DNA of 64,000 nucleotides, from the NCBI RefSeq assembly GCF_042242105.1, contig NC_092014.1:6731874-6795873 (forward strand), in the 5' to 3' direction. The notes below the pieces were generated by a model. It saw only the letters and a program-made list of their open reading frames with translations. It had not been told where the DNA came from and did not search any database. The position numbers and the translations under genes were made by a program. This stretch comes from Pempheris klunzingeri (lineage: Eukaryota > Chordata > Actinopteri > Acropomatiformes > Pempheridae). This document shows, piece after piece, positions 5,046 to 63,598 of this stretch (position 1 is the first letter of the stretch; each line of letters begins with the position of its first letter).

Positions 5046-5086
<41 letters not shown>

Positions 5087-8000
5087 AACTTTCCATAAAG
5101 AGCAGGTCTAGACCAAACTCTTTAATTAAGTGAGAGACCCAATGACTCAAGAATTATAATATATACATATATAATTTATTATTTAAGATGATAATAATGT
5201 AATATATCTGAGAGTTTTATACTTTATGCCAATATGTAAATGTGTGTTTGTTTAAATGTCCAGTACGTATGAGTTCATGAAGCCCATGCTGGTTGTGATG
5301 GACCCTGACATGTTGAAAACCATCCTGGTGAAGGAGTGCTTCACTTACTTCACCAACCGACGGGTGAAAACACACTACATGAACACTGAATAGAACAAAA
5401 GACAAGAGAGTGTAGCACAAAAGAGAAAACAGATCCTTTGGTCATTGATTATATGGACTATTGCTGCCTTCAAATGCAACTTTTAGTGTGAACTACTTGC
5501 AAACTGAACTAACACATTAGTAAGGGACACTGTACAGCAAGCTGGTCATTATTGCAAAATGAACCCCAACAGGGCGATGCAGGACCCTGAGGAGAAGGAC
5601 CACTTCAGGATGATTCATGAGCCCTCTGCCTCGGTTCCTGCATCACTTGGTCCGTGTGCGTTTAGCAATAATGGCCGCCAAACACTGTACATTATCCCAC
5701 TTAATGCATGGCTTTGTTCTAAAGAAATCAATTAATCTAGAATAATTTTATCAATTAAAAAATTATTTTATTGCCTCCACTATCAGAACTGCGTCCCGAG
5801 CAATGGTCTGTTATACAGAAATATCAGACTGCAGAATTGACTAATCGGCATCGAGTATTTAACAAAGGTGTGTAATAAAACATGTTCATGTTCTGGGTTG
5901 GATTAGTGGGCTGACAAACCAGCAGACTGACACTGACATCCCCAGGGCTACCACTAGTTCAGCTAAAACATATTGCAAACCAAGAATAATCTGCTACACA
6001 ACTCATCTGAATGGCATTAAAATGTGGGAAATCTTGAGGATGAGACTTGTGTTATTCTTTGTTTTTCTTATGGCGAACAAATCTCATGAAAACACCCAAA
6101 TCCACAACCTCTCAATACTGTTTGACTTCCCTTCGCTGTCTGTATCATTCAGTGCTTCAGCTGGGCACTGAAGTTTTTACCAGCCTTTACTCAAACAGGA
6201 GTAAATAGCTCTGAATTAATACACATTTGGTGCTGTGAGTATTAACAGCATCATAAAACAAAATAAAACCACAGTGCTCACAGTGTGGCCCATTGACATG
6301 TTTTTAATAATTTTTGGGCATCAATGTAGCTCGATGGCACAAAGGAATAAACTGCACCAGACAATATTAGAAGTACTAATGCATTATGAGTTTTGGTCTG
6401 TGAGAAAATTTTAGAATATCACCAGAAGAATCACTTAAAGCTCCATGTAATATCTTGTCCCTAATAGAAATATTACCTTTTTCTAACCAGTGTGATGGAC
6501 TACTACAGGATGTAATTAAGCATTGGCGTCAGGCAGCACGTCTTTACTGTTAAATGTCATGAAAAATACAACAAACAGCAGAACAAGCAAATTCTTTGTC
6601 CAGAGTGCTACTATTAAATTCTGTTAATGTGTACAATTGTAACCCACAAACACGTGTGCTGCCCCTCTTAGAACCTCCGTCTGAATGGGGATATCTATGA
6701 CGCAGTGAATTTGGCTGAGGATAATCAATGGAGACGGATACGTAACATCCTCACCCCCTCCTTCACCACTGGCCGTATAAAAGAGGTAGGACATATCAAC
6801 TCTTTTCAGCTCATACTTGAGTAGATTGAAGATAAATATATATTGTATATATGTATATATGTGTGTGTGTGTATATATATAGATATATATAAATATTCAT
6901 CCTTCATGTACCTCTGTTCATTTTGCACTTTTTTCTTTGTCTAAGATGTTTAGCATCATGAGACATCATTCCAGCAAACTGGCAGCCTGCATGCAGTCCA
7001 AGGCACACAATGATGAAGTTATCCGTATGAAAGAGTCAGTAATACCTTGCTATATATGGTTTCTAAATATTACCCTCCATGTGCTTGTTAATGACAAAAC
7101 ACCTCCCAAGATGGCCACACAAAAGCCAGTTGTGAGTTTAAGAGTACAAACAGTACAAATAGTACAATTGTAGGGATGCTTTTCTGTGGTTGTAGTAATG
7201 AAGAGAGTAGTCCAAGGTTCATTCAAGAAGTTTATGTAGGTTTACGAGCTCGGAGTCTAACATCACAGGCATAGATGAGACTAAAGAACACAGAGCAAAG
7301 CTTTCACATATATATAGGATTCCACAAGCAAGATCTGGTTTCAGGTATGTGAGGGGGTACCCCAAAGATGGACTTAACCTTTACATGTGCTGACCATCGT
7401 CCAGACAAAGTGGAGTCAGGAAGATAGAATGCTGACTTGAGAGGAACGTGTATGTTATCTAGGACACATGTCCCTACAGCATGTTACATGAAAAAGACAT
7501 TCTAACAACTATCAACCTTCTCAGCAAGAAAGCAAATAAGTGTATTTAAAAAACAAAACAAAAAAACAGAAGCTTTAAGAGATTAAAATAGAATAAGTAT
7601 TTTTCATTTGATTTCAAATACGTTGTCATTTCAAACTGTGATCCACAGTTAAAACCTCCATTTCACAGTTGACAAAACTGAAATTAGTAAATTATTTCAT
7701 AACCTTTTATTATTTTGGTACCTACTTATATTTTAGTATATTCTGGCGTACACTTCTTTCCATCCTCATTCCAGGTTCTTATTGGTGGCAGAGCGACGAT
7801 TCAATAAGTGACAAACCTTCTTTAGATTAGCTGCACACCTTCATCGCCCCAAAATATGAAACATATTATACAAATCATATGAAAATGGATGTAGAGATGG
7901 AAATAGACAAAAACTGTCTAATCCTAATAATCCCATCCCCACTATTGAGGGGATGGGATTGTTCTCTAAATCATATGGTTATCTTTTTCGATATATTACA

Positions 8001-11000
8001 GATTATATCTACAAAATGAACTATATCTATATCTATAAAATAAAAGAACCTAATTAAAGTTTTTTTAAAGTTTAAAGATTTTGTGAGATCTGCAAAATTG
8101 AAATTGCAATATACACAAAGGCTGATCTAAATCAAATGTCAAATTTCAGTATTTATAAATATTTCTCATATGGTTTCCTTGCTGTGTGTCTTTTTTTGCA
8201 AACATTAGTATATGTGCTCAATAACTTCACCATGTCATTCCTATACAATGTCCTTAAAACAAACATGATGAAATCTCCCACCTGTGGTGCTGCCGACAAC
8301 CATTGATCTGCGATGTGTCTAATGTGTGTATTCCAGCTTCTTCGGAGCCTACAGTATGGACGTGATGGCGAGCTGCGCCTTCAGTGTGCATGTGGATTCA
8401 ATCAACAACCCCTCAAATCCCCTGATCACCCACATTGCAAAGCTCTTCAAATTCTCCACATTACTTTATATTTTCCAAGGTACATCCATGACACCTTTTC
8501 TTTCCTTATATGGATGTAAACAGCCATGTTTTAGGACTAAAATGAGAAATGTTACCTGGTTTTTCTTCTCAGGGTGTTTTCCCATATTTCTTCCTCTGTT
8601 GGAGCTGCTCGGTTTCTCCTTCTTCCCTAAGGCCTCTACTGATTTCTTTAAAACCGTTGTGGAGAAGATCAGATCAGAACGCAGTGGGAGCTCACAGCAG
8701 GTCTGGACAAAACACAGAAATATGGATAAAATCTTCTGTCACAGTATATACTGTATATCAAGACAATTCATAGACATTTCCATTTATTCAATAGAGAAAG
8801 CATTAACAAATAGTTGACTAAACAATCTCATCACGAATCTTAATTTTGAAGGTGTTTGAAGCTATTTTGATCCTATCCCAAGATTTTCATCTGCAAATGC
8901 AGTCAGCCCAGTTACTATGAAAACGTAGATATAAGTGACATAAGATATAAGTTTAGTAAGCTATATAAGGACTTCCTGTCTATGTTGGCCTAAAAATGTG
9001 TTTCAAAATTCATTCTTGAAGTTTCTTGACGAATGTTGTTTCCATGGTCAAGAATGAACTTTGAAACTCAACCTTGAAGGCAGCATGGATGAGAAGCCTT
9101 TAAGGTCCTCAGAATAAAAGGAAATCTCATATTCCTATGACAACTGGGGAGACACCAGTTGCTGATGTCATATGATTGAAAGCTCCAGATAAGATATAAA
9201 TTCAACCTTGAGGAAATAATCTTTTGTCAATTGCTGTTTAAAAATTTAAGAAATAATTTTTAAATCCAACAGTTACTGATAAAATAACAAACAAACAAAC
9301 AAAAAACAAAAGCCTATGAATCTGCCATCTCATGGTATGCAGTATCTTGTCAGACAGCAGCATTATCTCACCTGTTTTCAGAATTCAGAAGATTTCCTTC
9401 AAAATATGATCAACTCTCAGACTGCCAATGATCCCAAGAAAGAAAAGCAGAATAAAGGTAATCATACAGCTACGTCACACACACACACCCAGAGGCACAC
9501 ATTCGCATGGATTCACACCAAAGCTCCTTCCATGTCTCTCCCTGACAGGTCTCACCGATCACGAGGTAATTTCTCAAGCGACAATGTTCGTGTTTGCTGG
9601 TTATGAGACGAGCGCCACCACCCTCGTTTTCTTGGCCTACAATTTGGCCAGAAATCCTGAAGTCATGAAACTCCTGCAAGAGGAGATAGACTCCACTTTC
9701 CCTAATAAGGTAGAGCAGGAGCTGCCGGTACAGGAGTCATTCTCTCCATTTCATTGATGAAACTACAGTTTTCCAAATCCAAATAGTGTTTAATCAAACA
9801 TCTCAATAGGGTCTGGTCCAATATGAAGCTCTGATGCAGATGGAGTACCTCGACAGTGTGGTCAATGAGTGTCTGAGGTAATGATGACTTCTAATAATCT
9901 AACTAATAAAGGAATATCTTATCTTATCTTATGAACAGATTGATGGTATGATATAAGAACATGTTTTGATATAATAACATATTTTCATAGAAACTATGGG
10001 AATAAAGGGGATAAATGATAATTAAAAAAATCTATTTTAAGGCAATTTTTGTTATGTTAACACTGAATTAAATGACAAATTGATTAAATGAATAAATCAT
10101 AGCACCAAACCTACCCAGCATGATTTTATAAGAGCTAAAAGCTAGAGTGTGCTGAGTAGCACTAAAAAGGAAGAACAGCCAAGGCTGATGGGAATGTCAT
10201 TAGGTCTGCGGGCATTTGATCATAAACCAAAGTGCAGTACAAATAAAAAAATGATCACATGATAGCTCTAAAAGAAAAGTCAGGGTCAATCCATCCGATA
10301 TTTGGCGAGGTGTTTTAGTTTAGACCACAACATTACCGTTCCTGCAGCCATGCTGGCAAGTGCATCTCTCCACAATATTCACACTTTTTAAAATGTGAAA
10401 CAGTCAGAAGGGTTTAAAAGCTTCTCAGCCATAGGAACAATAGCAAAATTCACACATTCTACAGCAACTAAAACTAACTGTGTTCCTATAATGCTAGTGT
10501 TTAAGTCTGAGGTAGTTTGGACTGATGGTTTAGCCTGACGACGCTACAGAGTATTAAAAAATATTCTTGTTTTGTTGATAGGCTCTACCCTCCAGCTGGT
10601 CGTCTGGAGCGAGTGGCCAAAGAAACTGTTCAGGTCAAAGGAATCACAATCCCAAAGGACATGCTGGTTATGGTTCCGGTCTTCGCTCTGCACCGCGACC
10701 CTGAGCTGTGGCCAGAGCCAGAGGAGTTCAGACCTGACAGGTAGATGCCACAGTGTGCATGTGTAAATGTGTGTACAATGTTACTGCAAAATTAAGCTCT
10801 AACGATTCTCCAAAGCAACTTCTTATGATTTCCCACTGCAAATTATACTATTTGTTTGTCCAGAACAGCTTTGAATGACATCTAATAGAGTGGTACATGC
10901 ATTACTAAAATGAATTAACTTCATCATTTTGTAAATCAGATTTTAATTCATTAGTTAATTTTACAGTGAAATGTAATAACATTTCTTGCTTTGTTGCTGT

Positions 11001-11374
11001 GTTGTTTGTCAAGATTTAGTAAGCAGAACAAGCAGAACATCAACCCATACACTTACCTGCCATTTGGGGTCGGACCAAGGAACTGTCTGGGGATGAGATT
11101 TGCTCTGGTGATGATAAAGCTGGCCTTGGTGGAAATGCTGCAGAACTACAGCTTCTCAGTCTGCAAGGAGACAGAGGTGATTATACTTAAATGACATACT
11201 TATGTGGACATGGTCTACATAACAGGCAAGATTTTCACTGAGGAAGAGTTTGTGATTGACTGAATTTGCCCACTCCCCCAGATCCCTTTGACGATGGACC
11301 CTGAGGGCTTGGTTGGACCCCTAAAACCAATCAAACTGAAGGTGGTGACACGTTCAAGCGCAACTGGGGAATGA
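4130..11374 (+). CDS. Cytochrome P450 family 3 (CYP3A-like) monooxygenase, complete
   Basis: Complete CYP3 gene, 503 residues, the family's usual length. Coding exons: 4130-4200, 4338-4431, 4566-4618, 5264-5363, 6672-6785, 6946-7034, 8337-8479, 8573-8700, 9382-9457, 9549-9709, 9810-9877, 10582-10740, 11014-11176, 11282-11374. All junctions are GT-AG and the phase is unbroken to the TGA. The N-terminus is a hydrophobic anchor followed by GIPGPKP. Catalytic landmarks are all present: I-helix FAGYETS (exon 10), K-helix ExxR in NECLRLYPP (exons 11/12), FRPDRF (exons 12/13), and the heme loop [10 protein letters not shown] with the cysteine ligand (exon 13). It should be an active ER monooxygenase with cytochrome P450 reductase as redox partner. 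Exon 7 is 6 nt shorter than in the divergent neighbour. Identity between the two looks moderate, so the duplication is old. Introns 4 and 6 hold mobile-element remnants and hairpins. Confidence 0.96.
4741..4986. mobile_element. MITE, probably Tc1/mariner-type, with perfect 30-bp terminal inverted repeats
   Basis: Positions 4741-4770 and 4957-4986 are perfect inverted copies over 30 bp; the core is CACTGTTGCCCATAAAGTTG. The 246-bp unit has no coding capacity and lies between TA-rich flanks, as expected for TA-targeting elements. The superfamily assignment is inferred from TIR style and flanks. Confidence 0.75.
5049..5087. repeat. (TA)n(CA)n microsatellite
   Basis: About 14 TA units run straight into CA units. 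It lies in the right arm of the inverted-repeat structure in CYP3 intron 3. Confidence 0.9.
5520..5706. mobile_element. Degenerate foldback/MITE-like element in CYP3 intron 4
   Basis: The left half carries GGTCATTATTGC, then GATGCAGGACC. The right half carries the approximate inverted complements GGTTCCTGCATC and GCAATAATGGCC. ACTGTACA occurs near both ends. This resembles palindromic repeats common in teleost introns. The arms have diverged and exact ends are uncertain. Confidence 0.4.
7929..7960. repeat. Perfect 12-bp inverted repeat with 8-nt loop
   Basis: AATCCCATCCCC at 7929-7940 is followed, after ACTATTGA, by its exact complement GGGGATGGGATT at 7949-7960. It lies in intron 6 of the right CYP3 gene. 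No function is evident. Confidence 0.85.
9000..9067. repeat. 20-bp inverted repeat (19 of 20 matching), 28-nt spacer
   Basis: GTTTCAAAATTCATTCTTGA at 9000-9019 is mirrored by TCAAGAATGAACTTTGAAAC at 9048-9067 with one mismatch. It lies in CYP3 intron 8 and could be a decayed small foldback element. Confidence 0.75.
9903..9932 (+). repeat. LINE/SINE-type 3' tail fragment
   Basis: AATAAAGGAATATC followed by TTATC repeats matches the AATAAAGGA-(TTATC)n tail that ends many teleost non-LTR elements; a second such tail lies at 35128-35196. Only the tail is visible, in intron 11 of the right CYP3 gene. Confidence 0.4.
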
Positions 11375-13246: not shown

Positions 13247-14996
13247 TCAAAGATAAAAAGAGGCACGAAAATCTCTTTCCCAGTTCTTATCTTTTTGCTC
13301 CTTTCTCCTACTTTCTTCCTTCCGCTGTCCTTTTCCTTGTCTCTCCCCTTTATCCTTGGATGGTGGTTTCACTGCGCCACGATCCCTGGCTTGGAAGTGA
13401 GTAACTTTGGCTCTCTGCATCTGTCCGAAGCCCAGGCCTTTCTGGTCTCTCTTCAGCACAGTGGGCACTGGCTGTTTCGGCCCCTCTCCCTCTGGCCCCA
13501 GCCCTGTCCCTGGTTTCCAGCCGCAACGGACCATCATCTTGTAGCTGTTGCTGGAGGGGGGGAGGCAGTAGTAGGGGGTGGGTGGAGGATGCTGCAGACT
13601 GAACTGGTGTAGAGTGGAGGAGAGGTGTGATGACAGGCTGCTGCTGTACTCATTACAGCACACATCGCACCACTGAGGCTGGGGGGCACTGGGGAAGGAG
13701 AGACAACACTGTTTCTAACTGACAGTTCTATAAAAACACAGTAAGTAAGTCACAGTCACAGTAAGTTTGGTCTATCTATTGTTAGTTGTTGAGTAATTTT
13801 GGTTTTCTATGCAAGATTTATGTCTAGAACTACAATTTTAAATATGTGCCATATATTGCATGATAATGTTTTCCACCTCTCTCCCAAACTCCTGCTGCAT
13901 AGCCTACTTCTTCCCTGAAAAATTTTATGTAAAATTTTATTGGATAGTTTGAGACATTTGTCACTTTTCAGTTGAAAATGGCAACTTAGTTAGTCTTCAA
14001 TCTTAGTAGGAAGGGTCTGTGTTTCTGTTTCCATTGAGGACTCACACTGAGTCATCAACTCTGGTACAATTTTAAATGAATTAATATTTAGCTCAATTTG
14101 ATTTAAACAGTATAAACTTAGGGTGTGCTAACCTGCTATCAGACTGTGTGTCACCCTGCGTACTTCTCCCATAGCTCTCCAGCTCCTCCAACACCTCATT
14201 GTGGCCCGCTGGGGATAAAAATAGATATGCACGAGTTCAACTTCACTATACACACAAACACAAATTCAGAGTGGCTGATATGAGCTGCATGCTTATACCT
14301 TCCAGTGCTAGGTCTCTGGCATCCCTGCCCTGCGTATCAACCACTCCAACCCAGGCTGCGCCGCGTTGGAGCAGCAGCCTCACCGCTGCACTTTGTCCTG
14401 ACCAGCTTGCGCACATCACCGCTGTCCAGAAGAAAGTATCCTGGAGGTGGGGGGGCAGTAGGACTTAAAACAAATACACAGAAAACAGATCCCCAAATGA
14501 AAACACACTGAGCAGGATGGTAAGTAAGTAAGTATGGTACCTGGAAGTTGATGTCAGCCCCCTTGGAGAGGAGCTCTTTGAGGCCAGAGATGTCCCCTGC
14601 ATCAGCACAGCGCAGCAACCTGAGCCCCAGGAGCTCCATGGACCGTTCTGAGTTGCTTGTCTCTCTTCTTTGGCTGCCTTCACTTTCACCACTGACCCTT
14701 TCTTGCACCCCAGAAGCATCTTGGCCAGGCTGCACCTCTGCAGCCCTGACTCTCCTCTTCACTCGTCTCTGGGACTCTCTGTTCCTCCCTTTATTCTGAT
14801 GCTCTCTGCCATAACCTTTCTTGCTACTTGAACCTCTTGATGCACCTCGCCCTTTATCATCTTTAATCAAGTTTTCGTAGAACTGCCTGACCTCTTCTCC
14901 ATCAAGCACACTGCTGGTTGTAGAGCTGGTTTGTCTGGCTGTTTCAGTGCTGAAAACATCCCGTCCCGTGGCAGGAGTGAAGCCTAAAGCAGCCAT
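13247..14996 (-). CDS. gpank1: G-patch domain and ankyrin repeat-containing protein 1
   Basis: Four coding exons: 14541-14996, 14299-14440, 14133-14208, 13247-13688; 1116 nt, 371 residues, close to the mammalian protein (about 356). The ATG at 14996 opens [14 protein letters not shown] basic and serine-rich stretch follows, then ankyrin repeats at about residues 123-210 (for example [14 protein letters not shown] and [11 protein letters not shown]). Exon 4 begins with a C2H2-like motif (C232, C235, H246, H252) and continues into the G-patch at about residues 270-315 (GWKPGTGLG, then KGLGFG). The C-terminus is lysine/arginine-rich. G-patch proteins commonly activate DEAH-box RNA helicases, so a nuclear RNA-related role is likely but unproven. 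The order ankyrin repeats then G-patch, with matching length, identifies gpank1. It is convergent with the right CYP3 gene. Confidence 0.93.
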
Positions 14997-15614
14997 CAGG
15001 AGTGACTGTAGCTTCAGGTGTGGCAGGCTGAAAGTTTCACAAGTTCAATTACGGTCAGTCTAAATAGCAGACCCCCACTTTACACTAAGGAAGCTGTAAT
15101 ACATTTGGAAAAACGGCATATTGTCCCACTGAAAGTCAATGAAGTGTCTCTTTTACTCTTTTTCACGCATATCTCTAAAGGTGAAATATGCATTAAGCTA
15201 TGAAGCTACAGCAGCTAGCTTGCTAATTTGATACACAACACCAGTAGGACGAGTGGTTTTCTGTCTGGTTAATTCCGACACACAAATGCAAAATTACAGT
15301 GCATCCAGTTACATATCTCAATAAGACAACAGCTGACAACCAGCCTTTGTAGCCTGAAGAAAGAAGTGTGCTAAGCTAACTAGCTGTTAGCTAGCTTAAG
15401 AGTGGTCGAGCTTTAGCTTGAGTCAACATTTAAACACATGTTAATTTGAGATGGAATAAAGGACTTCATTAAGTAACATTACCCAAGTCGCTTCAAAACA
15501 CTATCCAGTATGGACAAAAACTCAGAAAATAACCAATTTCTTTAATAAATACGAAGCTGCTTCTAGCTAGCGTTAGCCTCTTCCTTGCTGTTTGTAAACA
15601 GGTGAGTGACGGTG

Positions 15615-15632
15615 AGTGCTGCCACCTGTCGG
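15615..15632 (-). promoter_or_regulatory. CTCF-like motif upstream of gpank1
   Basis: CCGACAGGTGGCAGCACT on the minus strand resembles the vertebrate CTCF core, with AGGTGGCAG at its centre. It lies about 620 bp upstream of the gpank1 start. This is a motif match by eye only. Confidence 0.35.
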
Positions 15633-16168
15633 ACTGGAGGCTCCACCTCTCTGCTGCAGTCAAAGTTTCACCAGCTAATTATGCTTCATGTATCAAAAAT
15701 AACAATACTCATTATACAGAATACATTTCATACCGTGAAAATATTCTGTTTATATTATTGACTCTTCACTTCAGTAAAAGGAACAATGACTAGAAATATT
15801 ACAGTACAAGTTCTGTATTCAATATATTTCTCATGTTAAAGACAATAAGTTGTATCTTATACTGCAGAATGGCATCCATTAGTGCTATATTTTATTATTA
15901 TTATATTCTATATAATAGTTGAAGTGTAATTTTAATGGACTTTGAACTTCTTTAAATACTTATATACTAATCTCTATCTGCAAAGTAACTATACCTGCCC
16001 TATAACAGTATTTCCTAATGAAATGTAGGAAAAAAGTATAAAGCAGCACGTATTTTAGTTAATTCTAATAACTGCAGAATATGTTTTATATCTACATTTA
16101 CTCCTTTTCTTCTTTCTGCATGATTCTGGATTTCAGTAACTATAAAATGTTTTACCACTTACATAATG

Positions 16169-16248
16169 ATTTACAATTATGTATCATACAGGTTGTATAT
16201 TTTTCCAGCTCTGCTTTGCATTTGCTTTGGTATCATTATATTATGAAT
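16169..16248. repeat. Direct repeat copy A
   Basis: About 80 bp shared in the same orientation with 17785-17884. Both contain AGGTTGTAT, TTTTTCCAGCT and ATCATTATATTATGAAT in the same order. Probably remnants of one AT-rich mobile element family. Confidence 0.65.
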
Positions 16249-17273
16249 TAGCATACATATGTTGTGTGTGTGTGAGACAGTGAAGGATAATTTTGTCCCC
16301 ACTGCTCCCTCATGTGGCGGCTTGTTATTGACTTTTACTGCCTGTGATCCTGCCCCGTGGTTATTATCGATCCTCTGGTTATTTCTATGTACACAAACAG
16401 ACATAAAACCCTTGTTATAAATATACTTCTGGTTTGTTTTATGAAGATTATTATTTTTCTTTATGTAGTTTTAGATTAATTATTTGCCCATAAATTATTC
16501 AAAGAGGGTACATTTTTCTTACATTTTGGGAGAGATCACGCAGACATCTCTCATGGCTGCAAAATATTTATCTGCAAGTCAGAACTGAAGGGAAAACCTG
16601 TGAAACCACGTCTCTGTATATGCCTGCAGGGTTTAAATCAACAATATTGATCTCTTAATGAAAATGTACATGCTTATGGTGTTCAATAGCATGTAATTTA
16701 GCTTTGGCAATAATGTAACATTAATACTGGTGCCAATAATGATTATTTGATTGGATGTAATCTTGCTTTTATCATGAAATAGACCCCTGAGTGATAACCC
16801 ACATCAGTAAATGACCATTTGGTGTCAAGGCACTTATCCCCAGACAGCTCTGAGTAACCAACAGTGATAAAACCCTTCATAGATTTTTGGGGGTTCATGT
16901 GGAGACAAATTCATTCATTTAAGTCTGTTTACACCTGATTGATTCTCACTTGGCTGAAGGTGAATAAAATGATGCAGCTCACACGTTTAACTTTTGCAAG
17001 TATTCTTAAACCTCCTTACAGAGTGAATTATAGTTTTATTTTCATGGCACTTTACTAAACAGTTACAAAAGGCTTGGTTACAGAGACGCATTAACAAAGA
17101 CAATTTTGAATTGTGAAATGAATCAAACATGTCATGACAACAACACATACTGGAGCAGGAAGAACAACAAAAGTATTGAGCCATGTCTGAATCTTGTGGT
17201 GTTATTTAGTGACTGTGATTAAATCCAGTTTGTAGCCACAGATATGATGCAAACTGGAACATAAAAGGTCTGG

Positions 17274-17435
17274 ATGCCAAAGAACCGTTCAGATGCCGCT
17301 TACTGGTGTGAGTTTGTTGGTGAGATGAGGCGCTTGAATGAGAAAGCGATGCACCGGGAGGGCAGGTCAGGCACAGGGGTGAGAGGGACGAGCTACGACC
17401 ACGAAACCCTCATGCAGAGATTTTGTATTAAATGA
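17274..17435 (+). other. 53-codon orphan open frame with coding-like composition
   Basis: ATG at 17274 to TGA at 17433-17435; begins MPKNRSDAAYWCEF and ends LMQRFCIK. The stretch is more GC-rich than its AT-rich surroundings and charged in composition. I do not recognise the peptide and see no paired splice sites that place it in a gene. It could be a small gene, a relic exon or chance. Confidence 0.2.
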
Positions 17436-17784
17436 TAAAACGGCAACAGTGAAGGTTTACACTGCACAGAGAAATCAGTGGTTTTGCATGTTTTAGCCCA
17501 CAATGCATTAAATAAAAACAAAACAAAAAGTCCAGTTTAAGAAAATCAAACCCAGCAAACATGAAGTCATTAATTTCCTAATGTGAATTTGGTCATTTCT
17601 TGCACTGAGAAGCTGTTTGACAGCTTTCAGATATCAGACCACCCTCACAAACACAATCCTTGATCCAAGTCCAAATGTACTGATTCTGTTTAAAAAAAGC
17701 AGTAAAACAAACACAAACAATGAATAGCAGTAGGCTGAGAAACAGGCAGAACATGAGTACAGAAAGTACAGAAATACTTATTTA

Positions 17785-17884
17785 ATTTACAGTTGTTTAT
17801 CGTATAGGTTGTATGTTTTTCCAGCTTTGCTTCATATAAATACATGAAAAAAAAAATTTGCTTGGATATCATTATATTATGAAT
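17785..17884. repeat. Direct repeat copy B
   Basis: Second copy of the element at 16169-16248, with about 20 extra nucleotides that include an A-run. About 1.6 kb separates the copies. Confidence 0.65.
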
Positions 17885-18111
17885 GCAGATCTCCGCTGGT
17901 GATCTCTGTTACACCTAACCGTGACCTAACCCAAACCTTTAACCACGGTAAACATTTAACATATAACTTTTATTACAATTTTTGGTCGTCCTGGTGTGTT
18001 TGTTATTGTAGACTCAAGCTGTATACACTGTATACTGTAACTGTTTCAATTAAAGATGTTATATAATAAAAAAACAGGGCGAGACGATGGCAAAGATAAC
18101 AGAAGCAGGGA

Positions 18112-18117
18112 TTTATT
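18112..18117 (-). terminator. Possible polyadenylation signal of the zinc-finger gene
   Basis: AATAAA on the minus strand about 1 kb past the stop codon. I see no closer canonical signal, so either the 3' UTR is about 1 kb or a variant signal is used. Confidence 0.25.
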
Positions 18118-19137
18118 GATGTTGAGCAACGTTACTGGATCATAAAATATGAAGTGTGGAAATAATCAGCAGTTTATCAGTTAATCACCAGACCAAACTT
18201 GTTGGCTATGGAGGTTTTTGAGCCATGACCAAAACGTGGCCTTCAACAGAGGAGGTAAGGCTTGTTTTCAGTCTAGATCACTGCAGGAAAATGCATTTCG
18301 CTCTACCAGCGGCTCAAGTTGAGTCAGGAGTCAATGATGGAATAAAACCGTCAGGTTGAATCACTGCAACTGTAAGAGGTCATTCTGCAAACAGGCATAA
18401 ATGTGCATTAAAACTATTGGGCTCATCTGTCTAAGTATTTTTAAGATTAGCTCCAGACAGTTACAGACACACACACACGACCAAATGCGCGATCGTAACA
18501 CACATTTACACAGTGACCAGAAAAATAGCCCCCCCTCATGTGTCTGTGGCACCAAGTATCGAAAACTGTCAAATAAAGAGAATTTGCACAGATTATTACA
18601 GCTCTTTGCTTATTTTGACAACTTTCTATTTGACTAATTTACTTTACTTCAGTTCTTTTAGAGTGCTTGTGTTAAACATTTAAAATGTTTAGCTTGTTAA
18701 ACAAAGGCTTTTTTTTTTAGAAATACACGTTATATCCCTTAAAACAAGGATTTTACTTAAGATATAATTTAAAAAAATATTAATTTACAATAATTTGTAA
18801 TGCTTCATCTTTGCGGATATTATGTCTGAGAGGTATAGACAGAACATTGGTTGTCACTTTAAGGCCTTACTTTGTGGTGTTGTTTTGGGTTTTCATTCTT
18901 CTCTACAACAGAGGATATCTATATTCTGTACAAAAAAAAAAAAAAAATTCACATAATCTCATTATGTGAACAGTTGGCAGCGTAAATCTGTTATGGTTTC
19001 AACATATTTCAAATCGTTAACAACAAAATCATTTGTTGTTAATGCTGCTTACCTCTCTAAACATGCAAAACCACTGGTATGGTCATTCAAAAGCAACAAC
19101 TGGAGCTTCACAGGAGTTCTGTTATTATAGCATCTCA

Positions 19138-22100
19138 CTAATGGTATTTACTGATGTGTCTGTTTCTGTCCCCAGTCTGTGTGAATGTCTGGCCGCAGTG
19201 AGGGCAGGAGTACGGCCTCTCTCCCGTGTGTATCCTCATGTGAACATTCAGTTTGTCTTTACTGATGAAGCGCTTGCTGCAGCAGGTGCATGCGTACGGT
19301 TTATCCCCCGTGTGATAGCGCTGGTGCATCTTCAGCTCCGTCATGCGACCGTAAGTCCTGCCGCACTCGGGACACTCGTAGCTGGGCCGCACCTCCATGT
19401 GCTGCCTGCTGTGCAGCCGCAGCCCGCTGGACGACCTGAAGCTCTTGCTGCACTGTGAGCACTGGAAGGGTTTCTCTCCGGTGTGGATGTGCACGTGGAG
19501 CTTGAGGCTGGCGGCCGAGGGGAAGCCGTTGCCGCAGATGGAGCAGAGGTGAGGCCTCTCCCCCGTGTGGATGCTCAGGTGCTTCTCCAGCTTGTTCTTG
19601 TTCAGGAAAGTCCTGCCGCAGACGGGGCAGTTCAGCGGCTGCTCTCCCTCGTGCAAGCTCATGTGCTCCGTCAGCTCGATTAGCGTGGAGAAAGCGTGGT
19701 CGCACCGAGTGCACGAGTACGGCCTCTCCCTCTTGAACTTCCTGTGTTTGAGGCAGTGTTGCTCCAGATCTTCCTTCTCCTCAAAGGTCTCGATACAACA
19801 GGTGCACTGGTACGGTCTTTCTTCTGTGTGAGTCCGCAGGTGATACTTCAAAGCCGTTAACTGTAGAAAGACGCTGTCACAGTGTGGACATCTGGACTCC
19901 CGTCTGTCGTGGACCATTATGTGCCTCTTGTAGTGAGAGAGCTTGATGAAGCGTTTGCGGCACAACGAACAATAATACTGCTCATCTTTGTGGCCTTGCT
20001 CGTGCTTCTTCAGCGCATACTCAACCTTAAATTTCTTCCCACACGTGTTACAGGTGTAAGACCTTTCATGAACTCCCATGTGCGCCTCCAGTTCTTCTGG
20101 ACTACTGAAGGTTTCATTACATTTCGGACAAGTGCCATTGTTTTCTTTCACATGAATCTCCATGTGTTTGTTAAGATCCTCTGGGAAGGCGAAATTCTTC
20201 TGGCAATCAGGGCAGGTGTAACACTCGCCGTTTGATGCTTTGCGGTGGGTCACTATGTGCCGTTTCAAATGATACATTCGACCAAATACTTTGCCGCAAT
20301 CACCGCAGACGAGGCTTCGGGGGCTGGATTGGACCTTCTTGTGTAATTTAAGGTGACTTACAAGTGCAGCCTTGTCCTTGAACTGTTTATCACATGAAAG
20401 ACACGTCAGGCCTTCAACCGCATGAGTCTTCTTGTGTGCTTTCAGTTCCAGCCAGCTACTTAAACTTTTCCCACACTTAGCACAGATGTACTGGCCCAAG
20501 CCGTGCTGGTTCCTCAGGTGTCTGGTCATGTGGTAGGACTGGCTAAAGGTCATAGCGCAGACCGGGCAGCTGAACGGTTTCTCCTTCGTGTGCGTCCTCA
20601 TGTGTCTGGCAAGTTTGTTTGGTCCTCTGAAGCGCCTGCCGACACAGATGGGACAGAAATGGCCTTTAGATTTAGTTTTAGAGGCGGCCTTTTCTTTCTG
20701 ACTTCCTTCATCTTCACCTTTGGCTTCATCGGTGTCCTCATCTTCGGACTTTATGCTAATTTCACATTCTTTATCCTGAGAATCATTATCGTCACAGTCT
20801 GCATCAATCTCAGCAACATTATCGTCGCAATCATCGCTCTCATGATTATCAATGTTACATGATTCCATTATTTCTGGGTTTTTCCATTCATCTCTATGCT
20901 GGGAACTATGTCCCTCTGTCAGCGTAGACTGGTCTTTGCCATGTGACAAAGTATGCCTGGAAAACGCACCATTGTCGGTAAATTTCTCACGACAGTCGGG
21001 ACATGACAGAACTTGTGGCACATGTGTCCTCTTGTGACTTTGAAGCTCCGCAAAGCTCCCTAAACTTTTGCCACACGTGGAGCAGACGTGAGGGCCCGCG
21101 CCATGCTGGTTCCTCAGGTGCCGCGTCATGTGGTAGGACTGACTGAAGGTCAAGGCACAGATGGGGCAGCTGAACGGTTTCTCCTTCGTGTGCGTCCTCA
21201 TGTGTCTGGCCAGCTTGTTTGCATCTCTGAAACGCCTATCGATGCAGATGGGACAGTGGGGGCCTTTTAGTTTAGCCGAAGAATCAACAAAGTCTTCATC
21301 GTCACTAGCTTTGTTGCACTCTCCCATCCCTTGTGATGATGACGATAAGGGCCCATCATCATCATCATCATCTTCATCATCACCTGCTTTATTGCTGACT
21401 TTATCACAATCCAGATTAATCTCGTCGGCCCTCTGGGACATACCTTCATCATTATCACTATAATACAGCTTATCATTGTCGTAATAGTAATTATCTTTGT
21501 ATCTACATGATTTTGTTGGGGTTTTAGTCAAGTGTGGTTTTGTTTTGTGTTTCGCCCTTCTCTCCCCACGCCGGGGCCGCCCTCTTTTGGCCTTTGTTTG
21601 AACAGGAGGGTCTAAATCTCCAATGTCCACGCTGACCTCGTGAATACCAAGCAGTTCAGATTCACTTAAAGCAGATTCAACCTCTTTACCAATAACTAAT
21701 GCTTTTTTCAAGGTTAGAGTTTCCCGCTCCGACAGCAGCGACTCTTTGACCTGTGGGCAGTTTGTATTCTCGATCAGCTGATCCAAAATAAGTTTGTCTT
21801 GTAAGTCTCCATAGTTGCAAGGCCTCAGCAGTTGTTCTAACGCAGACACAAACTGAACGACAGTCTCTCCAGGCAGCTGAGCCCTCTGATGAAATTTAAG
21901 GCGGTACATCTGAGAGGTGTGATCGGAGGTGAAGTAAACAGTCAGCGCTGAGATGGCCTCTGCGTACGTGGTTTCGCTCTGGATCAGTGTTGTGAAGATT
22001 CGCTGGCCTTCTGGGCCAAGGCAGTTCTGTAAGAGCAAACGCTTACTCGAGTCGATGAGCTCGTTTTCACCGATTGCTTCAATGTAGTGTTCAAAGGCTC

Positions 22101-22254
22101 TCAGCCACTTATGCCAAAACATGGTTGGTTCACCAGGGACAGGCAAGAAAGGCGGAGGTGGGGAGAGGATTATCAGTAATGGCTGTGGGAGTGGCTCTGA
22201 GGAGAAGTCCTGTTTCATCACCTCCTCATCTACTTCTTCAGTCACTTCACCCAT
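19138..22254 (-). CDS. Intronless Gag-capsid-like domain + 22 C2H2 zinc-finger protein
   Basis: One uninterrupted frame of 1038 residues. After an acidic, proline-rich start, residues about 45-200 match the capsid fold region of Ty3/gypsy Gag: WLRAFEHYIEAIG, LLLQNCLGPEGQRIF, QMYRLKFHQRAQLPGETV, then KLILDQLIENT. Residues 223-233 (KRGRPRRGERR) form an AT-hook-like patch. Twenty-two C2H2 fingers follow: four at 334-438, four at 534-638, and fourteen from 650 to 1038, several with TGEKP-type linkers. Fingers 1-4 and 5-8 are near-duplicates, each preceded by an acidic stretch. The last finger ends at the C-terminus. Expected role: nuclear sequence-specific DNA binding, with the capsid-like domain probably mediating self-association, as SCAN domains do. 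No reverse transcriptase, integrase or LTR is visible, so this is a host gene with a captured domain. A T18 run lies directly upstream (A18 in sense). I do not recognise a named orthologue. Confidence 0.93.
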   Translation of the reverse strand: MGEVTEEVDEEVMKQDFSSEPLPQPLLIILSPPPPFLPVPGEPTMFWHKWLRAFEHYIEAIGENELIDSSKRLLLQNCLGPEGQRIFTTLIQSETTYAEAISALTVYFTSDHTSQMYRLKFHQRAQLPGETVVQFVSALEQLLRPCNYGDLQDKLILDQLIENTNCPQVKESLLSERETLTLKKALVIGKEVESALSESELLGIHEVSVDIGDLDPPVQTKAKRGRPRRGERRAKHKTKPHLTKTPTKSCRYKDNYYYDNDKLYYSDNDEGMSQRADEINLDCDKVSNKAGDDEDDDDDDGPLSSSSQGMGECNKASDDEDFVDSSAKLKGPHCPICIDRRFRDANKLARHMRTHTKEKPFSCPICALTFSQSYHMTRHLRNQHGAGPHVCSTCGKSLGSFAELQSHKRTHVPQVLSCPDCREKFTDNGAFSRHTLSHGKDQSTLTEGHSSQHRDEWKNPEIMESCNIDNHESDDCDDNVAEIDADCDDNDSQDKECEISIKSEDEDTDEAKGEDEGSQKEKAASKTKSKGHFCPICVGRRFRGPNKLARHMRTHTKEKPFSCPVCAMTFSQSYHMTRHLRNQHGLGQYICAKCGKSLSSWLELKAHKKTHAVEGLTCLSCDKQFKDKAALVSHLKLHKKVQSSPRSLVCGDCGKVFGRMYHLKRHIVTHRKASNGECYTCPDCQKNFAFPEDLNKHMEIHVKENNGTCPKCNETFSSPEELEAHMGVHERSYTCNTCGKKFKVEYALKKHEQGHKDEQYYCSLCRKRFIKLSHYKRHIMVHDRRESRCPHCDSVFLQLTALKYHLRTHTEERPYQCTCCIETFEEKEDLEQHCLKHRKFKRERPYSCTRCDHAFSTLIELTEHMSLHEGEQPLNCPVCGRTFLNKNKLEKHLSIHTGERPHLCSICGNGFPSAASLKLHVHIHTGEKPFQCSQCSKSFRSSSGLRLHSRQHMEVRPSYECPECGRTYGRMTELKMHQRYHTGDKPYACTCCSKRFISKDKLNVHMRIHTGERPYSCPHCGQTFTQTGDRNRHISKYH

Positions 22255-22398
22255 CGCTGTTTTTTTTTTTTTTTTTTATTAACGAGGCAAATTTTATTTC
22301 TTTGACTCAAGTACGAGTCACTGAATTAACATGTTCACCCTCTTTGGTCCGTGTTCAGGCTCCGGATGCTTCATCTCACTCAGATCAGTCCATCAAAA
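22255..22398 (-). other. Probable 5' UTR part of the zinc-finger gene's coding exon
   Basis: A good acceptor (TTTGTTTCTTCCACAG) reads on the minus strand, with the exon starting at 22398, 144 nt upstream of the ATG. The leader would contain a short upstream frame beginning MKHPEPEHG, an AATAAA at 22298-22293 and A18 at 22277-22260. Inferred from splice-signal quality only. Confidence 0.35.
22260..22277 (-). repeat. A18 homopolymer just before the zinc-finger ATG
   Basis: Eighteen A's in the sense strand, 16 nt after an AATAAA and six bases before the ATG. The layout mimics a retroposed polyadenylated 3' end. Confidence 0.9.
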
Positions 22399-22399
22399 C

Positions 22400-25300
22400 T
22401 GTGGAAGAAACAAACACAAATATACAAATATATAACATTGAAATATACACGCTGAAATATACACAGTTTATTAGGTGCACCTCGCTAGAACTAAAGCAGT
22501 TTAGTGCAACAGCTCTGCAGTAAATGGTAAATGGTCAGCTCAATGAAAAAACAAACTGAAAGAGTTGCTGTAAATATATACCACCTTTCTAGTCTTTTTG
22601 ACCACTCAAAGCTTCGTAACATTACATTCACCACACTAACCTGACATCAGGAGGAAACTAATCATTCACACTCACTCACACTGAGCTGAGCCTCAGCTAC
22701 CCCTCCTTCATGAAAGTTACAATGCTCAGTTTTTGCTGAAACTGTTATAGAGAGCTGGTGATTTTACTGTGTTTTCAGTTTAGACGATGTAGTTTGTGGT
22801 GGTGTTGAATTGTAGTGTGTTATACTAAGATTTTGTCCATTCATATCAATGAGGGTTGGCTAAATAACACCAACGCCTCTCTGGAAAAGTAAACTTGAAG
22901 CACATCCATATAAATGTGGGGAAATGATGGGTAGAATGATCGAAACTGATGCGGCAGAGCCCGACACATCCAAACTTTTAGTCTGCAGTACAATGTCATG
23001 TGATGTATAAGCTGGCAGATAAATAAAACAGAAAAAATTATATGTCAAGTCTACAGCATGGGCAGAAGTTTTGCATCTCTTTTGTGTTAAGACTCACAGT
23101 TTGGAAAGAATTTAAAACAGTTTTTCATTGATTATCAATAAACAAAGCTCCTTCATGACAGGCAAGTACAACCAGAATTCAAAACTTGTTCAAATTTGCC
23201 TGAATTCACATTTTCCAAACCTGCATCAAACAGCTTAATGGAAAAAGCAGCTGAGGTCACTGACCCGACAGACTCTGACTTTTGGAAAATAAACAAGTAG
23301 TGCGAGATCAGGACGTTACCTCACAGAACCACAATGTTGGTTGAGGGGAAAATATTCAACAAATATCACTACTCATGTTTGCAGTGATACATTTACTCAA
23401 GTGCCGTCTTTAAGTACAATTTTGTGACACTGAGTACTTGAGTGTTTCCATGTAATGCTGCCGGTGTTTCTCCTGGATGGAGTTGCAGCGGTGTCATCTG
23501 TTTGTGTGTGTGTGCTCACAAAGTGCTCCCTGCTGGAGGTTTCTATGTTCAGGTAACATGTTACCCAGTTTTTAGATTCTGGAGAACAATGGAGCTCAAT
23601 GGAAGAGAGGAATAAGATTTATCAGGCTTTATTTCCTCTGGCAGTTGAGTGTTTACTTAGTCTGATCAATTCATTATTAGTGTTGAGTTGTTCGTGGGAT
23701 TATTGTCTATAAGAAGAATACAAAATGTAACTGACCCTCTTGTAACCCGCATTTGGTTAATTTTATTTTTTTATTCTAATTTTTTATTTGCCCTGTGACC
23801 TCTAACCCCTTGACCTCCGTAAAGTCACGGATCACAGAGTCGAGTCACTTCCTCCTTAGTCTCCACTGTGGCTGTGGCGGGGTAAGGTCGGCGTCTCAAA
23901 CTTTGGCATGAAGCATTTGGAATTTTTGCATGTTAAACCGTCGCTCACGGGTGAGTCTTTTGAAAGTGCACTTTTTAGCTTGTATGTTTATGCATACATT
24001 AACTTTATTTATTTGATATTTTGAATGGAATAATTATGTGTATTTTTGACCTTTTTTAGGTCAGGTTTTTTTTTTCGAGGAATGAACACCACATCTCAAC
24101 TCAACTTGGCGAGCTAGAACTGGTAGGAAACAAACTGACTCAAACTGGTTCGTGAAGGAACCTCTCAGGATTACATTTTTTTGGTTTCCAAGGACATGAA
24201 CTGAATTTTTTTTTGAGAACTTATTTGTGAACATTTGAAAACTATTGCACTTTGCAATTAATTGTAATTGAGTATTGATTTTTTTTTTTTGGGTAACCCA
24301 TCCTTGAATGGAGCATTGTTTGTATTGATTGTTCCTTTTCCATGTAAATATTTTCACTAATACACACACTTAAATTGCACTGCTGTTCGACCCATTCATT
24401 TACATCCCAGGCTCCTTTAAAAGAACTTCTGTTTAAAAGTCTTCTGTTGCAGCTATTGTAGCCGTAGTCACCACCTGCCTAGCCTACATGCGTTACACTC
24501 TCCTTTAAACTGACATTCAGGGATTTTAAAACTATGGTGAAAATTATATTTTAAATTCTAAGGAGGGAGCTGTGTGCAAAAGACAAACCAAAATAAATGG
24601 AGGAATGTCATTATTAGACACTCCACAGTCTGCACAAACAACCATCTGATGGCCATTAATACCTCTCTCACACCCTCAGACACTTTACTTATAGGACACC
24701 TGCTTAGTAGTTAAGTATAGTCAAACTATCTGTTCACTATCTGTCAACGTGTTGTCTACATAAAATGAGTAACCATGGCAACAGGGATGCAGTCTGCCTC
24801 CACGCTGTCTATTGATTCCTGATAACGGACACCTCGTCCAGCATCATCCCTTACACATTTGTGAATTTCTACAACATTTATGTAAACTAAGAAATGTTTG
24901 TGTGCGCATCAGAAATGTTTTCACAAACTTTATCTTTATCTTGTGACACAAAAACAGTTTTGATTGTATATGAATGAAAAACAAATCCACATATTATAAG
25001 ATAAAGCTTGTGAAAACATTTATGTGGAGTCACTTGTGTACAAATCCTGAAATACATTTGTGAGACTGGACTCTATAACATTTAGCTGATAAAACCTCTG
25101 TAGTTGTACTTCAGTAGGATGTTAAATGACTTTTACATCATGATTTTGGTTCTTAAATCTGACTAAGAGATTAGCCGGTTACTATGTTAGTCTGGGATGA
25201 GAAATGTTTATTGTGGGTTGAGCCGTTTTTGCCTTGTGGTCTTTTGTTTCTGCCAACTGGAAGAAAAACACCATAAACTGGAATAAATGAAATAAAATAA

Positions 25301-25480
25301 CATAAACTCAACCACAAGCTACACGGACGCTGTTAGTGAACGGGTCAGTGTGAGACAGACAGACAGACAGACTGACTGATTGATTGACTGACTGACTGAC
25401 TGACTGACTGACTGCAGACACCAACGCAGGGAAGAAGCAGCACTGAGATGAGTATTAAGCAATAATAATAAAGGAGGAGG
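22400..25480. other. Non-coding stretch upstream of the zinc-finger gene
   Basis: AT-rich DNA with scattered T-runs. I find no coding exon or recognisable element. It may be the first intron of the zinc-finger gene if transcription starts near 25.7 kb. Confidence 0.45.
25353..25414. repeat. Tetranucleotide tandem repeat (GACA)n(GACT)n
   Basis: About 15 tetranucleotide units that change from GACA to GACT, with one GATT variant. Confidence 0.9.
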
Positions 25481-25494
25481 AGACCAAAACTCAC

Positions 25495-25760
25495 CAAACC
25501 AAAGTGGGGCACAAGTCACGACGTGTGTGTGCGGACGGACGGACGGACGGACGGAGGGAAGGAGGGAGGGAGGGTGTAAACAAGGTGATAACAGCCGCAG
25601 GTGTCCAGACATTCAGCTCACAGCGGCTCTGCGGGATAAACTAGCGAGAAACAGCCTGACGATGTTACAGTCAACACATTAAAGCAAAGCGTCAAGTGAA
25701 AAATATATCCGCCATGCTGACAGCACAACAACTTCCGGACACCACGACTGTCCGTCACCC
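25495..25760 (-). promoter_or_regulatory. Candidate promoter and non-coding first exon, minus strand
   Basis: This segment is richer in GC and CpG than its surroundings. It has an ETS-type CCGGAAG (25738-25732, minus strand) and CATGGCGG just downstream, an arrangement common in TATA-less housekeeping promoters. A strong donor, GTGAGT, follows position 25495 on the minus strand. It could be the start of the zinc-finger transcript, spliced to the acceptor before 22398. No transcript evidence. Confidence 0.35.
25532..25574. repeat. Tetranucleotide tandem repeat (GGAC)n(GGAG)n
   Basis: GGAC units change into GGAG/GGAA units. The tract lies inside the candidate first exon. Confidence 0.9.
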
Positions 25761-25782
25761 CCCAGAGGAGAGTTAGTCCGCA

Positions 25783-25803
25783 CCACAGCGCCCCCTGCCG
25801 GCC
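25783..25803 (-). promoter_or_regulatory. CTCF-like motif beside the candidate promoter
   Basis: The minus strand reads CCGGCAGGGGGCGCTGTGG, very close to the vertebrate CTCF core CCASCAGGGGGCGC. Binding is not shown. Confidence 0.45.
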
Positions 25804-27745
25804 AGGAGACACATCACACCACCAAACCTGTAAAAACACTACACAGTAACATCAAAATGTAAAAGTAAGGACCGAAACGTTTTATTTACAATAAAGGTTT
25901 TTACAAGTGTGCGTGAGTTTTCCTTTTCCCTCTCTTGCTTTTGGACATTTTCTCCTGTCCACAAAAAACGTCAGGTGTGCGTGAACCTTTTTATTCAAGA
26001 TATAAACATAGATTAAAATACAAATATATATAAAAAGGTGAAAATAGGTTTTTATCAAAAGTACTGATTGGGTCAGCATGCTGCAGAATGATGCCTGTCA
26101 GTATTTATCATATTATTGGATTATCATTAGAGATGCATTAATTCATAAACAGTGTTGTTTTATGTTGCTGCTGCTTGAGGTAAAGTTGTTGTAATGTGAA
26201 TTATAATACAGGCAACACTGTCAGGGAGTTTAATGGACTCCGAAACAATGCATTGTATTCTATGTGCTCTACATAGCAAAGTAATTTGTTACTACTGTCA
26301 AATGAATGAAAAAATGAGTAAAAAAATTCTCCTCATTAAGGTTTCCTTAGGCTGAACCTTGTCATCTCCTAAATAGCTAGAATGAAAATCATGAAATATG
26401 ATTAATATAATCACATTACATTTAATTACACGTGCACTGACAACTTCCATCAGTGTCTGTGATTATTCGGCTGATTATGTCAGTTATTAGAAAGCTGAGC
26501 CACAAATTACAAAAAAAGAACCTGAATTCTAAATATTGTTTGATATTAAATGTTCATTCACAATTACATATTATTAAAACAGTTTTAACAAGGAGAGGAA
26601 AAGTTTTGTCTTTCCCTGTCTCCTTGGTATTTCTATGATGTATTTATGTGCCTCTTGTGTTTCTGTTTTATTGCTGCACAGCCAATTGTACGTTGGCCCT
26701 GACAGGTAGACGCACTGCAAGCTCAGAAAACGTGCAAATAGACGGAACACAAGCACATGAAGGAAACATCTTCACCTTTTTTTCGATGACACATGCAGAA
26801 ATGCTGCATGTAGCACAGAGAGAAACACTTCAAACTAATTTTCAACACTTTGAGCACCACAAATTGAATTCCACTTACCTCCGTTGTGTTGGAGCAGCGG
26901 CAAAAATCTCAGGGACAAATCGATCAAAACCTGCACAAATAAAACAGCACAAATTTACAATTGCTGCGACCACATGCACTAATGCATCCATGTACGCGGT
27001 TCATGCGTTCACATACACACACCCACACACTCACTCTTGCAAACACTTGACCATCATGGCAAATCAGGAGCCCTTGTGGACTAAACTAAGTGTTACTTAG
27101 TGTTCCAATTGGCCTGAACCAGCTGTCTTTTGACTCATCTGTCCATCAAATCTGTGAAGCCATTTGGAGCCAATTGGCATGGCCACAAACACACACCTTT
27201 CACAACAGGGTGCAATTACCCTCCTAGGAGGGTGAAATTACTCTCCTAGGAGGGAAAACAGTGGATGAAAAGGGGCTGGTGTGAAACAACCCTTAATTTG
27301 ATAACGTGTGAACACCTTCGCTAGTAGTAACAAGTGCGTGTTGCTTTTGCTGAATTATCTCTCACGTAATTGCTTGATAATTGAACTTAATAATCTGCTG
27401 CCATCAGTTTCCGCAAATGCTCATCTTAATTCAGGGAAAAGTGTCACACAGGCCTTTCACACACTGAGCAGTGCAATGAAACGCTGACAGATAATAATTA
27501 ATAGACAACAGCTGATAAAGCTCCGGTCCTTCCCTCCTGTTACCACCTTAATAAAAACACGAACACTGCTCACAGGCCTGGTTAAAAGGAGTTCAGTGAG
27601 ACAGTTCAGGGTCACAGAGGCTGTAACAACATGTTAAGGTGCATCTTTAATTCAGTTGATGTAATGTAGAGGATGATCCAAACAGACGTGTTCACCGTCC
27701 CAGTGCTAAAACAGACCACAAAGACACACTGTTAAACAATGACCA
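25804..27745. other. Non-coding stretch between the candidate promoter and the sidekick 3' end
   Basis: AT-rich, with no supported exon. The only notable structure is a pair of tandem palindromes at 27214-27252. Confidence 0.45.
27214..27252. repeat. Tandem 22-bp repeat carrying palindromes (CTCCTAGGAG)
   Basis: ACCCTCCTAGGAGGGT at 27218-27233 is a perfect 16-bp palindrome. The 22-bp unit beginning AATTAC repeats once, giving a second CTCCTAGGAG at 27243-27252. Confidence 0.8.

Positions 27746-29332: not shown

Positions 29333-63598
<34,266 letters not shown>

Follow-up and report, generated by a model that had tools for sequence, protein, structure and literature searches.

A Ty3/gypsy-type Gag capsid joined to a zinc-finger array in euteleost fishes: a probable oligomeric DNA-binding protein

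The fish Pempheris klunzingeri encodes a 1038-residue protein, P0001, in which a capsid region of the Ty3/gypsy Gag type is followed in a single reading frame by an AT-hook and 22 C2H2 zinc fingers. The gene lies in a 64,000-nucleotide stretch of contig NC_092014.1 (assembly GCF_042242105.1, positions 6,731,874 to 6,795,873 of the forward strand), hereafter the window, whose own numbering is used throughout. A domesticated capsid-finger origin is argued by a predicted two-lobed fold, kinship with gypsy Gag, a single origin and long vertical conservation of the capsid. Probably, a gypsy capsid was joined in frame to a poly-C2H2 gene, whose product would now sit at fixed places in the genome as an oligomeric, multivalent transcription or chromatin factor.

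The gene and its capsid domain

The frame runs uninterrupted through 19138-22254, 1038 codons with no stop or frameshift, as claimed in an earlier note made from the sequence alone; the strand, which that note left unstated, is minus. All four capsid motifs quoted there occur in the translated protein, the strict C2H2 pattern recovers the 22 fingers that it counted, and its AT-hook-like patch is the core KRGRPRR. The parts of the gene, all on the minus strand, are:

19138..22254, minus: capsid-zinc finger protein, 1038 residues plus stop, putatively a single coding exon (from the frame and orthologue starts)
22123..22173, minus: proline-rich Gag N-terminus, residues 28-44, around SPPPPFLPVPGEP (from conservation; the motif opens the Gag of P0083, the gypsy relative described below)
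21922..22122, minus: capsid N-lobe, residues 45-111
21637..21921, minus: capsid C-lobe, residues 112-206, including QRAQLPGETVVQFVSALEQLL
21568..21588, minus: AT-hook core KRGRPRR, residues 223-229 (from [RK]GRP counts in fusion proteins)
20941..21255, minus: C2H2 fingers 1-4 (block A), residues 334-438 (strict C2H2 pattern)
20656..20940, minus: acidic linker 2, residues 439-533, fast evolving (40% identity, indels)
19141..20655, minus: C2H2 fingers 5-22, residues 534-1038 (strict pattern; internal repeat)
22399..22420, minus: candidate 3' splice acceptor gtttgtttcttccacag (read from sequence)

The N-terminal domain, which the earlier note took for a retroelement capsid, finds both a profile match and a structural match. 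Pfam PNMA (PF14893) matches residues 47-145, scoring 29.5 bits (E 6.1e-7; the cut-off is 25) if the scan is confined to residues 1-218 and 25.7 bits (E 8.8e-6) if it covers the whole protein. With E up to 1 allowed, Pfam lists no other capsid family for P0001: the other two profiles named in the earlier note, SCAN (PF02023) and Retrotrans_gag, have no match to P0001 within this limit, and SCAN has none in the family members P0054, P0062 and P0137 either. The AlphaFold model of the domain is a confident two-lobed fold. In alignments with structures in the Protein Data Bank (PDB), the predicted C-lobe aligns to the capsid C-domains of MLV, MOAP1, Arc and PEG10; the predicted N-lobe aligns to several capsids, that of PNMA2 included, but the match is less decisive. 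Alignments spanning both lobes were obtained with the capsids of PNMA2 and dArc1, over 165 and 151 residues with root-mean-square deviations of 17 and 11 Å, respectively. The suggestion of a capsid fuller than that of SCAN thus agrees with the model, in which both lobes are predicted. SCAN structures are absent from the structure-alignment (VIA-align) matches listed, 50 in one comparison and 28 in another, which is not evidence against a relation to SCAN. A phmmer search with residues 1-218 found no match among PDB sequences at E up to 1, no NCBIfam model matches P0001 with an E-value of 0.01 or better, and a solved-structure search with the alignment of full-length rows, dominated by zinc-finger and pol parts, is uninformative on the capsid. 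Within the C-lobe, QRAQLPGETVVQFVSALEQLL resembles the major homology region.

At the 5' end, the start MGEV is common to many orthologues, and gtttgtttcttccacag upstream of the ATG suggests an intron in the 5' untranslated region followed by a single coding exon. Upstream of the start codon, and only a few bases from it, lies a run of about 18 A (window 22260-22277, minus strand). In the finger array, two of the 22 fingers have 13 rather than 12 residues between the second Cys and the first His. The longest direct repeat within 15000-27000 is internal to the gene (20366-20665 and 20966-21265; 300 bases, 75% identical, 600 apart), which indicates that fingers 1-4 were duplicated at the start of the second finger group.

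Gypsy relatives, the family and the age of the fusion

The nearest relative outside the family is P0083, a Ty3/gypsy gag-pol protein (51% identity over 181 residues; a cluster of 57 sequences), whose 1320 residues include reverse transcriptase, RNase H and integrase, with CCHC scoring below the cut-off. Used as a tblastn query against the window, its Gag matched 21637-22173 at E 2.5e-50, and no other match came below E 0.5. The Gag of P0083 opens with MSELVLPPPPPFLPVPGDP, the counterpart of ILSPPPPFLPVPGEP in the fish gene; because the two match, the fish gene has retained Gag from close to the beginning through the whole capsid and has lost nucleocapsid and pol. A search with the P0083 Gag found P0088 from the anchovy Coilia grayii, 72% identical to P0083, and also added two flatworm (Macrostomum) records, other gypsy proteins and more fusion proteins. 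By hhalign, 95 fusion capsid rows match 14 other gypsy capsids at E 5.7e-39; this E-value, the PNMA match and the P0083 tblastn match together reject a chance helical resemblance to Gag. The names of the flatworm gene records P0094 and P0095 (Macrostomum lignano) refer to B9 and C2 domains; both records contain a related gypsy capsid (41% identity to P0083) and are perhaps misannotated elements or another capture.

The earlier note saw no pol or long terminal repeat (LTR) nearby. Indeed, no pol was found in the window, where tblastn with the pol parts of three gypsy elements gave E 0.23 or worse, and no long repeats flank the gene within 15000-27000. The fish gene displays the marks of a domesticated metaviral capsid, i.e., homology to gypsy Gag, loss of pol and flanking LTRs, and long conservation of the capsid.

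The orthologue search in other teleosts that the note had proposed was productive. Residues 1-330 retrieved 85 proteins, 83 capsid-finger and two gypsy gag-pol; 59 of the 83 capsid-finger rows are named, come from 57 fish species and are mostly called numbered 'zinc finger protein' or uncharacterized, the public names of the family including 'zinc finger protein 420-like', '585A-like' and '665-like'. The search is based on shared words, and this query missed fusion proteins found with the P0083 Gag and finger queries. In all, 103 of 144 proteins (P0001 and 143 others) carry capsid plus fingers, a fusion protein being one with at least three pattern-matched fingers and a capsid profile score above 50. 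Ninety-four of the 103 match the capsid profile from residue 50 or earlier to residue 194 or later, i.e., across both lobes; the profile was built from 27 of the 103, whose matches hold by construction. [RK]GRP stands between capsid and fingers in 95 fusion proteins and is missing from eight, including both Lepidogalaxias-type rows; RGRP was not found in the eight gypsy proteins checked. Exactly 22 fingers are present in 48 of the 103, with a range of 4-44 when short records and the double protein P0087 are included.

Two records stand apart in layout. P0087 (Thalassophryne amazonica, 2294 residues) holds two full capsids (1-200 and 1011-1221) and more than 40 fingers in one annotated protein, through either tandem duplication or a fused gene model. 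In P0062 (Myripristis murdjan) the four-finger module is present four times over.

In a maximum-likelihood capsid tree, a branch supported at 96/99 separates the fusions from the gypsy rows; the fusions stand next to P0083 and P0088 (95/93). The tree is unrooted and comprises 95 fusion rows (93 proteins plus both P0087 copies, one entered twice) and 16 gypsy rows; it omits P0092, a gypsy fragment, and those fusions whose capsid match is short, includes no SCAN or PNMA protein, and drew a program warning on long branches such as P0096, P0086 and P0123. Fusions again form one clade (96/98) in a tree built from the N-lobe, which samples nine of the 16 gypsy rows and 22 of the 103 fusions, among them Lepidogalaxias, and leaves 12 of 28 inner branches open. 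These two clades reject several independent fusions. Capsid and finger identities are correlated between pairs (r 0.83; 0 of 2000 permutations as high) among 59 near-full-length proteins of 960-1140 residues with 19-21 pattern-counted fingers and a near-full capsid. Since the capsids form one clade and diverge in step with the fingers, the fusion is best explained as single, old and vertically inherited; the many relatives, the capsid tree and the correlation reject a recent or species-specific insertion. Capsid and fingers also keep company in a finger search, among the best 120 of 815 matches: 101 of the 103 proteins with at least 50% finger-region identity carry the capsid; under 50%, it is found in P0072 (46%) and in P0006, a short record, and the best protein without a capsid reaches 41%.

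The records that bear on age are P0137 of Lepidogalaxias salamandroides and the protein P0140, both with an N-lobe match and fingers 56% identical (again among the best 120 of 815). The N-lobe tree puts both within the fusion clade (96/98) and, weakly (90/76), outside all other sampled fusions. In the NCBI taxonomy, Lepidogalaxias belongs to Lepidogalaxii, a group next to Neoteleostei within Euteleosteomorpha; Myripristis and Genypterus belong to Acanthomorphata, and we take the remaining species with the fusion to be acanthomorphs (spiny-rayed fishes) too. If the Lepidogalaxias records are sound, the fusion would be older than the split between Lepidogalaxias and Neoteleostei, which occurred well over 100 million years ago.

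Conservation, possible functions and genomic setting

Identity figures are means against P0001, and insertion/deletion (indel) figures are counts of orthologues, over 58 orthologues, a sample that favours intact proteins with a near-full capsid. The proline motif (83% identity, indels in 0 of 58) tops the non-finger stretches measured. The capsid core (69%, 15 of 58) almost equals finger block A (72%, 11 of 58) in identity and exceeds both the first linker (44%, 58 of 58) and linker 2 (residues 441-533; 40%, 55 of 58), while fingers 5-22 are 85% identical, with indels in 29 of 58. The DNA-contact positions of the fingers are 84.6% identical, against 80.2% for the remaining non-Cys positions that precede the first His; in 16 of the 22 fingers the contacts are the more conserved class. 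In arms-race families such as the KRAB-ZNFs, contact residues are expected to change fastest; here they are conserved on average, which speaks against fingers engaged mainly in a transposon arms race and in favour of DNA targets that are for the most part fixed.

A scheme that would account for these features begins in an early euteleost fish, where the capsid region of a Ty3/gypsy Gag, without the CCHC nucleocapsid and pol, would have been joined in frame to a poly-C2H2 gene. The AT-hook and the 22 fingers would hold the protein at fixed sites in genomic DNA. The capsid lobes may self-associate, much as SCAN and BTB domains do, bringing several molecules together for cooperative or bridging binding; the protein would then act as a multivalent chromatin or transcription factor in which the whole capsid is the oligomerisation part.

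Several observations weigh against this scheme. Across the family the PNMA profile matches weakly: precomputed Pfam lists name PNMA in 4 of 83 fusion proteins, P0062 reaches 21.1 bits, short of the cut-off, and for P0054 and P0137 no PNMA match is listed with E up to 1. Indels are commoner in the capsid core than in finger block A. The apparent excess of conservation at contact residues is small, and six of the 22 fingers show the reverse; the contacts of finger 4 are poorly conserved (7-50%). P0119 (Takifugu) and P0116 (a Thalassophryne paralogue) lack the capsid despite at least 50% finger identity. Finally, six proteins in about four lineages (the sticklebacks Gasterosteus and Pungitius; Menidia; P0085; and Lepidogalaxias P0137 with P0140) keep the N-lobe without most or all of the C-lobe, usually the dimerising lobe.

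Some of these absences may be less than they seem. The P0119 record (Takifugu rubripes, 571 residues) begins straight after the capsid, at the AT-hook region, and is either a truncated model or a pufferfish capsid loss; P0076, P0077 and P0079, partial proteins that start inside the capsid, are probably truncated models. In Gasterosteus and Pungitius the capsid is cut at about residue 114 and resumes near 206, and parsimony on the N-lobe tree counts four C-lobe changes among the 22 fusion rows. The Pungitius record without the C-lobe is an annotated isoform, and some of the losses may be artefacts of gene models or splicing; if they are real, the N-lobe and proline motif would be useful without the C-lobe. 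Apparent recurrent loss provides a natural experiment for learning which of the lobes is important. It also bears on a stronger version of events, possible but on balance doubtful, in which a SCAN-like fish event captured a whole, assembly-competent capsid that forms rings or lattices on chromatin at fixed sites and was later trimmed lobe by lobe. Were that so, the trimming would show how a full capsid shrinks stepwise to an oligomerisation domain of SCAN size.

The same records lend something to the view that the capsid is a passive leftover on an ordinary conserved poly-zinc-finger protein: proteins without one or both lobes exist, and fingers 5-22 are more conserved than the capsid. The capsid nonetheless keeps 69% identity with indels in 15 of 58, far more conserved than the linkers at 40-44% and 55-58 of 58 (the 58 having been picked for a near-full capsid); moreover, 94 of the 103 fusion proteins match across both lobes, and we consider this view quite improbable. 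A role in retroelement restriction, in which the capsid would co-assemble with or poison related gypsy Gag shells while the fingers target their DNA or proviruses, is unlikely, if somewhat less so. Relatives of the probable donor (P0088 from Coilia grayii and P0083) exist, and Fv1 and yeast Ty1 p22 are precedents. A like role has been speculated for SCAN (PMC4592553). The capsid, however, is conserved rather than fast diverging, and the DNA-contact residues are on average conserved, whereas the FiNZ-ZNFs of cyprinids are reported to evolve adaptively (PMC10547256). Nor does the predicted fold make the protein a likely particle former akin to Arc or PNMA2, with nucleic-acid-carrying capsids and fingers in place of the nucleocapsid: both lobes are predicted and PNMA2 and dArc1 align along them, yet the CCHC nucleocapsid is gone, some lineages lack the C-lobe, and some 830 residues of AT-hook, linkers and fingers would be bulky in a small shell, which together render this alternative very improbable indeed. 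An oligomeric, site-specific DNA-binding protein thus remains the preferred reading.

The gene appears to lie beside a cytochrome P450 cluster (window 988-11194), as suggested by profile matches to P450 exons at 10526-10744 and 10970-11194 on the plus strand and by further P450-like stretches on both strands between 988 and 8712. A G-patch exon at 13247-13714 on the minus strand, also found by profile search, presumably belongs to gpank1. The Oryzias melastigma fusion record P0077 is named 'G-patch domain and ankyrin repeats 1' and the Acanthochromis fusion record P0035 continues into a P450, which hints at, and does not prove, a conserved neighbourhood. On the other side, 29333-29662 (minus strand) resembles what we take to be the cytoplasmic tail of a sidekick-type adhesion protein, with no Pfam match. 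Rfam has no match in the window at gathering scores, and searches of the viral_contigs and genome_contigs collections found no related locus.

Comparison with known capsid and zinc-finger families

The PNMA family (PNMA2, MOAP1) and Arc share the two-lobed metaviral capsid fold with the fish protein; we know of no C2H2 array in either. The N-terminal RNA-binding domain of PNMA (PMC11011659) has no room in the fish protein, in which Gag-like sequence starts at residue 28. The P0083 element has nucleocapsid and pol, whereas the fish gene lacks both and has AT-hook and fingers instead. The FiNZ-ZNFs of cyprinid fishes also bear a fish-specific N-terminal extension on poly-C2H2 proteins: a 28-residue sequence that reportedly has no significant similarity to known domains and occurs in about 700 zebrafish genes, many positively selected (PMC10547256). 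The fusion differs in having a capsid instead, in numbering 59 named rows from 57 species and in its mostly conserved contacts. A survey of domesticated mammalian capsids used hidden Markov models that missed SCAN (PMC11011659), and a survey of zebrafish endogenous retroviruses predicted SCAN, PNMA and zinc-finger domains at gag loci, apparently within elements (PMC8672886). Among the papers listed by literature searches, no title or abstract opening deals with a fish capsid-C2H2 fusion, though the family may already have been published. Records of the family exist in laboratory fishes (Oryzias latipes, Gasterosteus, Nothobranchius, cichlids), hidden by their public zinc-finger names.

For a retroelement capsid turned transcription-factor domain, SCAN is the well-known example. 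Amniote SCAN-ZNF proteins and the fish fusion share a gypsy Gag capsid fragment N-terminal to a poly-C2H2 array, presumed to be an oligomerisation part. SCAN, however, is the C-terminal portion of a Gmr1-like capsid (PMC4592553; the Gmr1 origin is also given in PMC3424704), whereas the fish protein has both lobes, as predicted, plus the Gag proline motif. Membership in SCAN-ZNF is rejected by the two predicted lobes and the lack of a SCAN profile match. An hhalign comparison of the fusion capsids with just two SCAN segments gave a probability of 0.2%. The fish capsid groups beside P0083 and P0088 and belongs to a different host clade. The earlier note's idea of a capture separate from that of SCAN is thereby supported by the place in the tree, the missing profile match and the retained N-lobe, and the fish gene looks like the same kind of invention as SCAN-ZNF, its independent counterpart. 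The function of SCAN in mammalian KRAB-ZFPs is described as unknown (PMC4592553). The euteleost capture has kept both capsid lobes and relatives of its donor element survive; comparing the two origins makes it testable why zinc-finger proteins take capsids and what the capsid does for them.

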